Shown piece by piece: positions 14,577-21,976 of a DNA stretch of 25,970 bases. The notes under the pieces were generated by a model that was not told where the DNA came from, ran no database searches, and was given only the letters and a program-made list of their open reading frames with translations. The DNA is from a virus, in the IMG/VR virus record IMGVR_UViG_3300025879_001295, positions 1 to 25,970 of that record; one strand, 5' to 3'. Within the stretch, counting starts at the first letter, position 1, and every line of letters starts with the position of its first letter. A program made the translations under genes and the position numbers.

Positions 14577-14711
14577 TTAATTATCCGTTCTCATCTTTTG
14601 TGATAGTTGGTCAGCAGCTTCTCTTAAAACCTGGGCTTTACGCAGCTGCTGTTGGGTCTCTAGCTCACGTGCCATATCGTGTAGCTTAATTATTAGCTCA
14701 TCGTCAGTCAT
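14577..14711 (-). CDS. Small helical protein between lipase and membrane gene
   Basis: 44 residues, all helical and charged (MTDDELIIKLHDMARELETQ, then QQLRKAQVLREAADQLSQKM). The start shares its A with the lipase stop (TAATG), and it ends one base before the downstream ATG, so it is tightly packed in the operon. Unknown function. Confidence 0.55.
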   Translation of the reverse strand: MTDDELIIKLHDMARELETQQQLRKAQVLREAADQLSQKMRTDN

Positions 14712-15430
14712 TACATGCCCTTCGTGAATTTCACGTAGTTAGCCATACCATGATCCATCGCACCATCCAATAAACCTGAGCGATACCCACGCCACTTGTC
14801 TTTGATTGCCTGCCATGTAGTGAGTTTACGGATATTGCCATAGAAGTTGATATACTGTAAAACTCCGTGGTGTTTATAACCCATTAGCCACAGCGGAACC
14901 TTTGTAACGATATCGTTGTTATTCACGAATCTCATATGTGGAGTTGCGATGTGCTTAACAAACTTACGTGTGCCCACCCGTGGAGAACCAAAGGTTGTAA
15001 GCTGTTTAACTGATGTATATTCCTCAAAGCGAGAAGTGGCTACTGTAGCCATTGCCGCACCAAGTGAATGACCCGTGATATAGAATGTTTTTGAATCATG
15101 GCCTTTTCCATGATGAGCTACGATTTCAGTCCATATGTTATCAAGCTCACCTCTAAAACCCGAATGAACCAAACCGTGTGTCATTGCACCACGCGGAATA
15201 GCATTCAGGTCTGCCAGAACATCAGACAATTCATCCGGCTCTGTACCGCGAAATGCCAACACGTATTCGGTTTTGTTCCAGAATGCATGACACTGTGCTC
15301 CGTCATTTTCAAAGAACTTATGGCCAGTAAACCCAAGAGGTCGACCTCTTTCTTTTGCCTTTGGACCGTCTAAGTAAGCGATCTCGGCAAGTTGGGCCAT
15401 AACGTGGCATACATTTCTCATAGGTTTCAT
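14711..15430 (-). CDS. Class 3 lipase-like alpha/beta hydrolase
   Basis: 239 residues. The nucleophile elbow is TGHSLGAA with S122; D173 in NNNDIVTKVP is the likely acid and H188 or H227 the base. AFRGTEPDELSDVLADLN before it is the lipase_3 oxyanion strand. The family hydrolyses acylglycerols or phospholipids. No clear signal peptide is present, so it may act from inside at lysis, or be a virion or superinfection factor; the setting among envelope proteins favours membrane damage at lysis. AGGAGAAACCT ribosome site. Confidence 0.85.
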   Translation of the reverse strand: MKPMRNVCHVMAQLAEIAYLDGPKAKERGRPLGFTGHKFFENDGAQCHAFWNKTEYVLAFRGTEPDELSDVLADLNAIPRGAMTHGLVHSGFRGELDNIWTEIVAHHGKGHDSKTFYITGHSLGAAMATVATSRFEEYTSVKQLTTFGSPRVGTRKFVKHIATPHMRFVNNNDIVTKVPLWLMGYKHHGVLQYINFYGNIRKLTTWQAIKDKWRGYRSGLLDGAMDHGMANYVKFTKGM

Positions 15431-18287: not shown

Positions 18288-18352
18288 TAAAGAGTTACGT
18301 TGATGGGGGAGAGAGTATACCAGATTCTCTTTCTTGATATATAATTTGTTAG

Positions 18353-18409
18353 CGTTGAAGCAACGTAGACACATTCTGGACCTGGGGGCAGTACCCAGCA
18401 GCTCCACCA
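18353..18409 (+). ncRNA. tmRNA acceptor piece (3' tRNA-like half)
   Basis: Contains hairpin CGTTG-AAG-CAACG (18353-18365), a T arm CTGGG/CCCAG (82-86 with 94-98 of 18300) with loop GGCAGTA, acceptor strand CAGCTCC, then A and encoded CCA. The GGGGGCAGTACCC T-arm is typical of alphaproteobacterial tmRNA. The 5' end of the mature piece is uncertain and may lie further upstream, near 18310-18345. Confidence 0.8.
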
Positions 18410-18521
18410 TAAACACACTAGGTTTGAAATATAACCTCTCTTTCCCGAGATGATAACTCGATATAGAGGACCTAGAAATAGGGTAAAGAATAAGAGTGCT
18501 AGTGTGTTTTTGTTGTAGCTG
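18399..18521 (+). repeat. Pre-tmRNA spacer hairpin 1
   Basis: 23-nt arms 18399-18421 and 18499-18521, 20 of 23 positions complementary. The left arm contains the tmRNA acceptor strand and CCA. The loop holds nested stems CGAG/CTCG and CCTCT/AGAGG. Confidence 0.75.
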
Positions 18522-18628
18522 CGACCCCACCATAGATACACTAGCGTCTTTTGAGAGTAATAGGTCTCTGGGACAGTCTTAGGATCCTCCCTTTGTTCTC
18601 GCTAGTGTATCTTTGATGGGGTCGCAGC
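18518..18628 (+). repeat. Pre-tmRNA spacer hairpin 2
   Basis: 29-nt arms 18518-18546 and 18600-18628, 27 of 29 complementary; the only mismatches are C-A and T-T. Contains CACCATAGATACACT at 18528-18542 and GTGTATCTTTGATGGGG at 18605-18621; loop of 53 nt. Confidence 0.85.
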
Positions 18629-18713
18629 TTCACCATAGATACACTTGAGCGGTTGGCCTAGTGTAAGTAAGAACTCGAAAGAGAATAGACTTGGGTGTAT
18701 CTTTGATGGGGCT
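18626..18713 (+). repeat. Pre-tmRNA spacer hairpin 3
   Basis: 24-nt arms 18626-18649 and 18690-18713, complementary with five G-U pairs and the same C-A and T-T mismatches as hairpin 2. The right arm contains the 5' acceptor strand of the coding piece, so it competes with the tRNA-like acceptor stem. The loop has a CTC-GAAA-GAG stem with a GNRA tetraloop. Confidence 0.75.
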
Positions 18714-18871
18714 GAAATAGGATCGACAGGTGTGAAGATGAAGTGGAGTTAACCGGATGATCGCGTATAGATCAATTAAACTAAATGCAAACGATAACTT
18801 TGCTCCATCTGAGTTCGCTCTAGCAGCGTAACCACAGGGGGTTGGTCACTTACCTAGCAACAGAAAAGTGA
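18708..18871 (+). ncRNA. tmRNA coding piece with tag ANDNFAPSEFALAA
   Basis: Starts GGGGCTGAAATAGGATCGAC, like the universal tmRNA 5' end (GGGGCTGATTCTGGATTCGAC). The resume codon is probably GCA at 18787, giving the tag to TAA at 18829-18831. After the tag, GTTG(18841-18844)/CAAC(18858-18861) and GTCACTT/AAGTGAC (18845-18851 and 18865-18871) interleave as an H-type pseudoknot, a PK2-like element. The ALAA end is the kind recognised by ClpXP-type proteases. Confidence 0.85.
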
Positions 18872-18901
18872 CATTTATTTTCAAAAAAGCTAAAATAACT
18901 G

Positions 18902-20351: not shown

Positions 20352-20380
20352 TGTACAAACAGTTTTGAATGTGGTATAAT
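20352..20380 (+). promoter_or_regulatory. Early promoter, cassette type
   Basis: -35 TGTACA 20352-20357, 17-bp spacer ending TGTGG, perfect -10 TATAAT 20375-20380; long A-rich upstream element. Probably the strongest of the group. Confidence 0.88.
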
Positions 20381-20409
20381 ACTACTATAATATGATGGAG
20401 AGAATCAAT

Positions 20410-20712
20410 ATGACTACTACTTTTACACCTGAACAAAAAGCAGCCCGCCTTGAAATGATCAAAGCTGCGGCTAAAAAAATCAATGATCGCAAAAACTTTA
20501 AAGCACGTCAGGCTGCTAACGCCGCTAAGGTCCGTCGCTACACTGATGTGGTTGAGACACCTAAGCGTAAAGCTAAATCTGACGAATTCGATCGTATGAT
20601 TTCCAAGCTTGATGAGAACCACAACGCGTGGACAGATGCTTCATCTTATGCTAAAGAATACTACGGTGAAACACTTCACTACACTACTAAGTTCGACAAC
20701 GATTGGAACTAA
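20410..20712 (+). CDS. Basic early protein of unknown function
   Basis: 100 residues from ATG 20410 (GATGGAGAGAATCAAT upstream). The N-terminal half is a highly basic helix (MIKAAAKKINDRKNFKARQA, AKVRRY), suitable for nucleic acid binding; the C-terminal part is acidic and aromatic (SYAKEYYGETLHYTTKFDND). Not recognised. Confidence 0.65.
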   Translation: MTTTFTPEQKAARLEMIKAAAKKINDRKNFKARQAANAAKVRRYTDVVETPKRKAKSDEFDRMISKLDENHNAWTDASSYAKEYYGETLHYTTKFDNDWN

Positions 20713-20715
20713 GGC

Positions 20716-20763
20716 AATGGATGATCCGTGTGATGAATGCAGCCACTGGGTTGGTAAACTTTA
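20716..20763 (+). other. 15-codon ORF with CxxC
   Basis: MDDPCDECSHWVGKL, starting 3 nt after the previous stop with AAGG before it. A CDEC pair suggests half a zinc knuckle. Either a micro-gene or the remnant of a zinc-ribbon gene. Confidence 0.3.
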
Positions 20764-20776
20764 AGGAATATACACT

Positions 20777-20932
20777 ATGAAATCTTATGAAATAAAAGCC
20801 TACATCTGGAAAGATGCTAAAAATACTCTTGTCGAATTTGGAAGTGGCTTTAGCTTCCGTCATGCCGATCAGTACTTTAAGCGTCTACGCGACACTAACA
20901 AGTTCTCAATGATCACAATGAAAGAAATTTAA
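20777..20932 (+). CDS. Small early protein
   Basis: 51 residues with AAGGAATATACACT before the ATG: MKSYEIKAYIWKDAKNTLVE, then FGSGFSFRHADQYFKRLRDT and a Met-rich end. Alternating strand and helix pattern, compact beta-alpha fold likely. Last protein gene before the structured RNA and the tRNA. Unknown function. Confidence 0.6.
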   Translation: MKSYEIKAYIWKDAKNTLVEFGSGFSFRHADQYFKRLRDTNKFSMITMKEI

Positions 20933-20936
20933 AGAA

Positions 20937-21240
20937 TTCGATACTGATTGGGTTTAGAGGCTAAAGACTAATCTTGATTGTATCGAAAATCCTAACAACC
21001 AATGTACATGGTCTGTTAGGTCGGTGTGAAAATCTGGTACCGAAGGAAACCCAGGCGCTGCTACGAGCGGGATGTGTAGATAAGGGGAGGGACGCTGCAG
21101 GAAAGTCCCTCCCACGAAAACTTCTTAATACTGCATAGTACGAGCAAAGAAACGTAACAGGTAGGTAGGTGCTAGCAACCGAACCCGTAAAATCCTGGTG
21201 AGGGACTAAGTTAAGACTACTATTCAGTATTAAGAAGTTT
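20937..21240 (+). ncRNA. Candidate structured RNA of unknown family
   Basis: No credible gene for 300 nt, but dense helices: TTCGATAC (20937-20944) with GTATCGAA (20980-20987); CCTAACA/TGTTAGG (20991-20997 and 21014-21020); CGCT/AGCG (21056-21059, 21066-21069); GGGAGGGAC/GTCCCTCCC (21085-21093, 21105-21113); and 23-nt arms 21118-21140 with 21218-21240, paired except for one C-T mismatch, enclosing a 77-nt domain. It ends 2 nt before tRNA-Trp. No promoter or terminator of its own is evident. A GCAGGAAAGTCC string resembles RNase P but other signatures are absent. Confidence 0.6.
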
Positions 21241-21242
21241 GA

Positions 21243-21316
21243 TAGGGTGTAGTATAATGGTAGTACAACGGATTCCAAACCCGTTGGCGTGGGTTCGATT
21301 CCTACCACCCTAGCCA
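21243..21316 (+). tRNA. tRNA-Trp (CCA)
   Basis: Acceptor TAGGGTG/CACCCTA, D arm GTAT-AATGGTA-GTAC, anticodon loop TTCCAAA with anticodon CCA, T arm GTGGG-TTCGATT-CCTAC, discriminator G73 and encoded CCA (74 nt). G73 and the loop support Trp; reading the anticodon as TCC (Gly) would destroy the anticodon stem. Oddities are the A31-C39 mismatch, a U1-A72 pair and a 4-nt variable loop. It is the only conventional tRNA seen in the window. Confidence 0.82.
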
Positions 21317-21335
21317 AAACAGTTTGGAGGATGTT

Positions 21336-21545
21336 ATGAGGACTGTACACTATGTAGGATTTAGAGGCGACGAGTACGTCCGCGCTCATAAGATCTTCGG
21401 TGGACCGGTTTATATCCACCGCGATTATGATGATCGTGTGTTTAGTGAAGTTGGCGATGATGATGTCGTTATCTTTGGTCCAAAGTATAAGAAGCTGCCA
21501 TATGTGTGGGATGCTTCTGCTGTTGATAGGAGATATACAGAATGA
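21336..21545 (+). CDS. Small protein of unknown function
   Basis: 69 residues from ATG 21336 with a perfect GGAGG 5 nt upstream. MRTVHYVGFRGDEYVRAHKI, then FGGPVYIHRDYDDRVFSEVG and an acidic beta-rich end; the hydrophobic strands suggest a small beta barrel. Directly downstream of the tRNA and overlapping the next ATG by 4 nt. Not recognised. Confidence 0.65.
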   Translation: MRTVHYVGFRGDEYVRAHKIFGGPVYIHRDYDDRVFSEVGDDDVVIFGPKYKKLPYVWDASAVDRRYTE

Positions 21546-21976
21546 GTATGCATATGATACAGGGTGTTCAAGTCCATGGCAACTCAAAGCGTCGTAAAAA
21601 AGCAAAGAAGCTTAATATGAAAGCTCTAGAGCTTGAATGGCGTCAGTACAATAAAGATATGCGTAGAAGTAACCTACACAATCTTCAGTACCAAACCCTT
21701 GATGAGTACATTGATTATAGAAGTGGAAAAGCACCCAAGCCGAAAACGGAGTTTAAAGAATATGCGAAGACCGAACCGTATGTCCGCCACACAGAGAACT
21801 ATCCAAGCCTCAAGACGTCGGACACAATACCTGGTGGGCCAACCCCGAAGAAAGAGCCTAACGTCTACACCGGAGATCTTATTGTCGGTATCGGACAAAT
21901 GCACAAATCAAACGCGGTTCCAATCATGCGTGGAACAAATGAAGCCAAAGACATAGCTCAAATGAGGAGAAACTAA
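21542..21976 (+). CDS. Conserved marine phage protein (GIGxMHKSNAVP motif)
   Basis: 144 residues. Basic N-terminal half (KRRKKAKKLNMKALELEWRQ, YNKDMRRSNLHN), then a disordered middle and a C-terminal motif VYTGDLIVGIGQMHKSNAVP IMRGTNEAKDIAQM, which recurs in many marine phages and looks like a small peptide motif. No domain is known. GGAGATATACAG ribosome site. Confidence 0.75.
   Translation: MSMHMIQGVQVHGNSKRRKKAKKLNMKALELEWRQYNKDMRRSNLHNLQYQTLDEYIDYRSGKAPKPKTEFKEYAKTEPYVRHTENYPSLKTSDTIPGGPTPKKEPNVYTGDLIVGIGQMHKSNAVPIMRGTNEAKDIAQMRRN

Follow-up and report, generated by a model that had tools for sequence, protein, structure and literature searches.

What does an interval without a credible gene, just ahead of a phage tRNA, encode? 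In a 25,970-bp IMG/VR virus contig, called the window hereafter, positions 20937-21240 lie between a 50-aa open reading frame (ORF; 20780-20932) and a plus-strand tRNA-Trp gene with the anticodon CCA (21243-21316; ARAGORN and Rfam). An earlier note, made from the sequence alone, had described this interval as an unassigned, highly structured RNA. The claim was to be given up if homologues kept the sequence but not the pairing, or if a conserved protein frame ran through the region.

The contig is T4-like in character, with a T4 RNase H family gene, PhoH, and gp59; the closest relatives of its RNase H are those of Melnitz and HTVC008M. Elsewhere it carries a two-piece (permuted) tmRNA gene of alphaproteobacterial type (18313-18875), which scores above the Rfam thresholds (RF01849, RF04321); marine phages are known to carry tmRNAs of this kind (PMC9004378). 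A class 3 lipase gene (Pfam PF01764) is present on the minus strand (14711-15430). Furthermore, a promoter-like site with an extended -10 element (20352-20380; TGTACA, 17 nt, TATAAT, with TG before TATAAT) precedes the ORF 20392-20712. The 50-aa ORF, which belongs to no known family, is located between this usual upstream ORF and the RNA.

Every helix named in the earlier note exists in the sequence. The interval folded at -94 kcal/mol compared to -76.9 ± 5.0 kcal/mol for shuffled sequences (z -3.4; 0 of 100 shuffles as good). As the reverse complement folded about equally well (z -4.3), fold energy alone cannot settle the strand, which was settled by the comparative evidence below. No credible reading frame was found, the window copy having stops in all six frames. 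A 214-aa antisense ORF (20961-21605) was rejected because it spans the tRNA and the next gene; only 26 of 63 copies have any antisense frame open across the core. In these 63 copies, core length varies between 59 and 70 nt and does not follow multiples of three. The sole Rfam match in the interval and its flank was the tRNA. With all 4227 models of Rfam 15 at gathering score, only tRNA and, elsewhere in the window, the tmRNA reached threshold, and nothing matched over the core in the window, G-type, or C-type copies.

Distribution of the RNA in virus contigs

Using the downstream protein (21542-21976) as query, we retrieved 80 related IMG/VR loci. The segment 20936-21124 of the window recurred in about 30 of them (blastn, nhmmer), directly 3' of a homologue of the ORF 20392-20712 and with or without a tRNA. 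Pattern scans on different parts of the core yielded further copies in many other neighbourhoods; a pattern scan of viral contigs with a stretch of the window copy gave zero matches. The collection comprises 76 distinct copies. A covariance model (R1), built from 23 copies with the window copy left out, gave the window copy a score of 77.9 bits (E 6e-18) and recovered dozens of others. Exactly one strong match was present in each of the 43 IMG/VR records that were searched whole (up to 221 kb), besides three weak opposite-strand matches (E 0.002-0.07) that overlapped or abutted a true copy. Since contigs are fragments, these counts stand for at least one copy per genome.

In GTDB genomes, the pattern scan detected two contigs of one Rhodobacteraceae metagenome bin and the model four. 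This bin, Water_Bin34, holds four copies on four contigs (L248-L251) and probably represents several phages binned together. It suggests hosts of Rhodobacteraceae type, without proving them. Among 296 genomes drawn from the same GTDB family, only this bin carried the RNA, and the absence from the other genomes therefore points to phage DNA and excludes a host RNA. The RNA is also missing from the nearest isolate phages, six that are related at the protein level (Melnitz-1, HTVC008M, phiM12, Cr30, RHph_I1_18, and S-CAM3), where the sole match had an E value of 0.14. The core, searched by BLAST in 50,697 phage records and 72,556 plasmids, gave chance-level matches only, and a longer query matched only the tRNA. 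No earlier description of the RNA was found in the open-licence literature searched. The element thus constitutes a previously unlisted RNA family of marine T4-like phages that lies outside Rfam.

A conserved core with optional or exchangeable flanking domains

The core consists, in order, of a hairpin (P2), two tandem H-type pseudoknots (A and B), and a GC-rich terminal hairpin, all on the plus strand. P2 (20991-21020) pairs CCTAACA (20991-20997) with TGTTAGG (21014-21020), followed by an inner ACC/GGT, and its stem is kept among copies with many different sequences. In pseudoknot A (21022-21055), CGGTG (21022-21026) pairs with TACCG (21038-21042) and TCTGG (21033-21037) with CCAGG (21051-21055). 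These two helices, the first and second of the alignment, have 93-95% of cells paired; the pairing follows the pattern C/U-GGUA with UACC-G/A and CNGG with CCNG, and includes two-sided changes (U-A/C-G, G-C/A-U, and A-U/G-C/U-A). Pseudoknot B occupies 21056-21079. Its first stem, CGCT (21056-21059) with AGCG (21066-21069), has the pattern CG..CG and is weak, with 66% of cells paired and the inner two pairs present only in a minority of copies. In its second stem, CTACG (21061-21065) with TGTAG (21075-21079), each of the five pairs shows two-sided change in at least one copy (CUGCA/UGCAG, CUAC/GUAG, CUAU/AUAG, UCGUA/UACGA, UUGCA/UGCAA, and AUGCA/UGCAU). The terminal hairpin (21085-21113) has 9 bp, 21085-21093 with 21105-21113; 99.5% of its cells are paired and 9/9 pairs are changed on both sides. 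Both pseudoknots had been missed in the earlier note. The RNase P-like GCAGGAAAGTCC mentioned there makes up the loop and the 3' arm of the terminal hairpin, and an RNase P element is rejected.

Across 63 distinct copies, 92.0% of the cells in the 28 pairs of the five helices were paired, 20 of the pairs were altered on both sides, and the covariation score was 0.339. The corresponding values in 500 shuffles were 83.0%, 11.7 pairs, and 0.159, while sliding the partners against each other gave at most 46% paired cells and a covariation of at most 0.12. Kinship among the sequences inflates counts of compensatory cells. L250 and L251, copies that only the model detected, bring new compensating variants, an unselected confirmation of the structure. 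Without the inner half of stem 1 in pseudoknot B, the cells comprise 1529 Watson-Crick pairs, 53 G-U, and 1 A-C. G-U is tolerated and the mirror-image A-C is not, which therefore demonstrates selection on the plus-strand RNA and not on the DNA. The sequence varies, the pairing stays, no conserved protein frame passes through the region, and no Rfam family matches: the claim of an unassigned, highly structured RNA was supported and withstood both attempts at refutation.

The extent of the RNA as first described needs correction, however. The conserved RNA covers only the 5' portion of that interval (about 20991-21113) together with an optional 5' domain, and the tRNA-Trp neighbours the family, adjoining some copies only, but forms no part of the RNA. 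In the window, the 5' domain is a helix, P1 (plus strand, 20937-20987), in which TTCGATAC (20937-20944) pairs with GTATCGAA (20980-20987). Its 5' arm is formed by the tail (..FDTDWV*) of the ORF found ahead of the RNA in relatives; several of these (L039, L069, and L086 among others) carry TTCGATAAC/GTTATCGAA at P1. The 50-aa ORF has been inserted in the window, yet the tail of the upstream ORF stays beside the RNA, retained as a copy (EFDTDWV*) in the 20780-20945 region. In other members, a pseudoknot takes the place of P1 (GAGC..GGGG..GCUC..GAC..GUC..ACCC). Such a 5' pseudoknot lies ahead of P2 in many copies, and its loop-to-tail pairing changes as a whole: GGG/CCC in L087, L129, and L139, GAG/CUC in L175 and L186, CGAU/AUCG in L133 and L135, and GACGGUC/GACCGUC in L201. 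These pairings were read directly from the sequences, without a statistical score. Because several copies lack a 5' domain and start straight after a stop codon (TAAAATCC), we define the core as P2 to the terminal hairpin, about 120 nt.

The domain closed by the 22-bp helix, which the earlier note had included in the RNA, is a separate module (plus strand, 21119-21239) that can be swapped or absent. The helix (21119-21140 with 21218-21239) has one C.U mismatch, which is a C-G pair in L066 and L072, and closes exactly 77 nt. This type A module is nearly identical in L004, L066, L072, L091, L097, L106, and L109 despite their differing cores, and offers no covariation. The remaining copies have modules of types B, C, D, or E, or none, and L087 has two 3' modules in tandem. 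One of the two nearest relatives of the region (L005; 97% protein identity next door) has a type D module at the same place and no core. The 22-bp-helix domain is a mobile or recombining, exchangeable element outside the core.

Modules A-E are found at 21119-21239 of the window and at L005 2183-2334, L007 4365-4517, L053 937-1030, and L059 4902-4994, with further ones in L087 and in L176 near 5629; 3' modules also occur without a core. Several share an internal GAGGG..CCUAAA motif and AACUAUUUUAA.. ends. Conceivably, they represent a second unlisted structured element.

Self-complementary loops and genomic context

Both hairpin loops of the window copy contain a palindrome on the plus strand, ATGTACAT in the apical loop of P2 (21002-21009) and CTGCAG in the terminal loop (21095-21100). 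The terminal loop hexamer is self-complementary in all 76 distinct copies, as CTGCAG in 56, CCTAGG in 16, and CTCGAG in 4. A scan relaxed to drop the CTGCAG requirement returned the same 44 contigs, and four later scans likewise imposed no such requirement. The three self-pairs of this loop are complementary in 189/189 alignment cells versus 81% in shuffles, with positions 2-5 changing together. On a tree of the remaining core, which rests on 67 columns only and is poorly resolved, the loop type switches at least 10 times. Since neighbouring loop bases cannot pair together, this compensation is best explained by pairing between molecules.

The P2 loop shows the same tendency with greater variety. 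Among the 43 distinct inner segments of P2, 42 contain a palindrome of at least 4 nt, compared to a mean of 25.8 and a maximum of 37 in shuffles, and 25 contain one of at least 6 nt (shuffles: mean 8.2, maximum 17). At least eight palindrome cores occur (UGUACA, GGCC, UCGA, ACGU, GCGC, GGUACC, CUGCAG, and CGUACG), with GGATCC in L251 and CTTAAG in L273 in addition. The palindromes are commonly flanked in the loop by one base on the 5' side and three bases, mostly purines, on the 3' side. Within a copy, the P2 loop and the terminal loop usually differ in their palindrome, on which ground kissing of the two within one molecule was rejected. Another candidate partner of a CUGCAG loop, the CUGCA strand in pseudoknot B, was discarded as well, as copies with CCUAGG and CUCGAG loops keep CUGCA. 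Together, these data establish a conserved, structured, plus-strand noncoding phage RNA with self-complementary loops.

Might the palindromes instead mark a DNA-level element that only resembles an RNA, such as a site of recombination, replication, or packaging, or the target of a dimeric DNA-binding protein? For this, the six-base palindromes equal common restriction sites, and the location differs from phage to phage. However, the excess of G-U over A-C cells (53 vs 1) reflects selection on the RNA strand, the dyad of the palindrome is offset from that of the stem (1 nt 5', 3 nt 3'), unlike in a DNA inverted repeat, and the orientation to the upstream gene is fixed. We regard this explanation as very improbable.

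The criterion for a kissing-loop homodimer, a self-complementary hairpin loop with compensatory changes, is met (76/76, three palindromes). Two objections to a dimer remain possible. The loop type may switch through recombination of whole hairpins, in which case not all of the ten changes would be stepwise compensation. Alternatively, a dimeric RNA-binding protein, and not RNA-RNA pairing, could be what maintains the palindromes.

The RNA is located 3' of a same-strand gene, commonly within 50 nt and within 200 nt in all resolved cases. The upstream gene is not conserved, and neighbours include gp32-like genes, small ORFs, and tRNAs. For nine copies, the preceding gene has a gp32-like acidic end (DDTMSYFAKLAAED or similar), and one of these genes was verified as encoding a single-strand DNA-binding protein. 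In many copies outside the window group, a U-run follows the terminal hairpin, which may act there as an intrinsic terminator; the window group has CCCACGAAAAC instead, and then a further module.

This setting is the basis of the main rival explanation, namely a 3'-UTR element whose pseudoknots and terminator hairpin stop transcription and shield the upstream mRNA from 3'-5' exonucleases, without any independent RNA. It is supported by copies lying commonly 0-50 nt past a same-strand stop codon, by minimal copies that begin TAAAATCC, by the many copies ending in a U-run, and by the nine gp32-like gene ends with their one confirmed ssDNA-binding protein. Against it, the upstream gene varies, there is about one copy per phage, and a plain hairpin would suffice for termination. 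In addition, the window group lacks the U-run (CCCACGAAAAC) and has further modules downstream, and the invariant non-paired bases and the palindromic loops are left unexplained. On balance, this explanation appears unlikely.

A cis-acting leader, i.e., a riboswitch or translational switch for the downstream gene, would fit a fold that resembles a pseudoknotted aptamer and leads into a terminator-like hairpin; at some loci (L129, L138, and L193) a start codon lies within 20 nt. However, a leader should in every case precede a regulated gene or gene class and share its direction, whereas the downstream genes here are unrelated. In eight distinct copies (L125, L187, L190, L192, L197, L199, L222, and L223), a convergent next gene on the opposite strand rules out a leader function. 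Nor do the copies conserve any alternative pairing, and we give this rival very little credence.

A tRNA gene, often tRNA-Arg(UCU), lies within 1 kb of 25 of the 63 distinct copies. Pseudoknots near phage tRNAs recall theta ribozymes (PMC10879173), and a self-cleaving or self-splicing ribozyme (HDV-like theta, or a group I or II intron) might process the neighbouring tRNA. However, theta ribozymes cut at the tRNA 3' end, whereas the window tRNA lies downstream, about 130 nt past the core; tRNAs elsewhere stand at varied distances and on either side, and most copies are not tRNA-adjacent. Nor is there the nested double pseudoknot of theta ribozymes, the pseudoknots being tandem H-type. Rfam intron and ribozyme models were unmatched, and group I and II introns and RNase P RNA had no match over 20700-21450 even at E up to 10. 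A ribozyme is therefore highly doubtful.

The reading we prefer, and consider likely as a whole, is a trans-acting kissing-loop homodimer RNA of marine T4-like phages. The RNA would form the 3' portion of plus-strand phage operon transcripts and fold into the P2 hairpin, two tandem H-type pseudoknots, and the GC-rich terminator-like hairpin, with a third pseudoknot in front in many copies. Two molecules would then join by kissing of terminal loop with terminal loop, to which kissing of P2 loop with P2 loop would probably add. The RNA structure, its strand, the loop palindromes with their compensatory change, the approximately one copy per phage, and the varied genomic places are shown. Homodimerisation and a stable separate transcript are inferred, as no transcript, dimer, or phenotype has been observed. 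A role of the dimer in infection, as a trans-acting RNA scaffold or regulator, is a guess, possible by analogy with GOLLD/ROOL or the T4 RNAs C and D, and the target of the dimer is likewise guessed. A bolder reading, which we raise only as a possibility, is a new class of self-assembling phage RNA. Here, two different palindromic loops would build a defined oligomer, loop swaps would give self-recognition versus a co-infecting relative, and the assembly would act on host or phage development.

Comparison with known structured RNAs

Among known systems, GOLLD and ROOL (PMC12286853) share with the new RNA a phage- or prophage-borne origin, an ornate fold with pseudoknots, a frequent position near tRNA genes, and an unknown function. 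They differ in size, many GOLLD members exceeding 800 nt compared to a core of about 120 nt with palindromic loops, and their Rfam covariance models do not match the new RNA. GOLLD and ROOL form homo-oligomers with kissing loops, whereas for the new RNA the evidence for self-association is only indirect, through its palindromic loops.

The loops themselves resemble the HIV-1 DIS, which also has a six-nt palindrome in a hairpin loop with flanking loop purines, and in which few palindromes prevail. In HIV-1, these are three (GCGCGC, GUGCAC, and GUGCGC), and the flanking purines matter (PMC5874298). Retroviral DIS elements are unrelated in sequence and virus, however, and belong to a packaged RNA genome rather than a phage noncoding RNA. 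Another small phage RNA that oligomerises by loop-loop pairing is the phi29 packaging RNA, whose loops are complementary to each other and not palindromic. It comes from another phage group, and nothing here links the new RNA to packaging.

The T4 RNAs C and D (rnaC and rnaD; NC_000866) are small RNAs of a T4-type phage that adjoin tRNA-Arg, just as many copies of the new RNA lie near tRNA-Arg(UCU). An unfiltered model search of the T4 tRNA region matched neither RNA convincingly, the best scores being 7.3 bits or less and none of them at rnaC or rnaD. Stable phage RNAs of unknown function beside tRNA genes include T4 RNA C and D, GOLLD, and ROOL, to which the new RNA is a compact addition with a well-supported fold and a wide spread in viral contigs. 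Its predicted homodimerisation by way of interchangeable palindromes is directly testable. Being only about 120 nt long, the RNA is a far easier object of study than GOLLD or ROOL, and could bring within reach the question of why phages retain RNAs of this kind.
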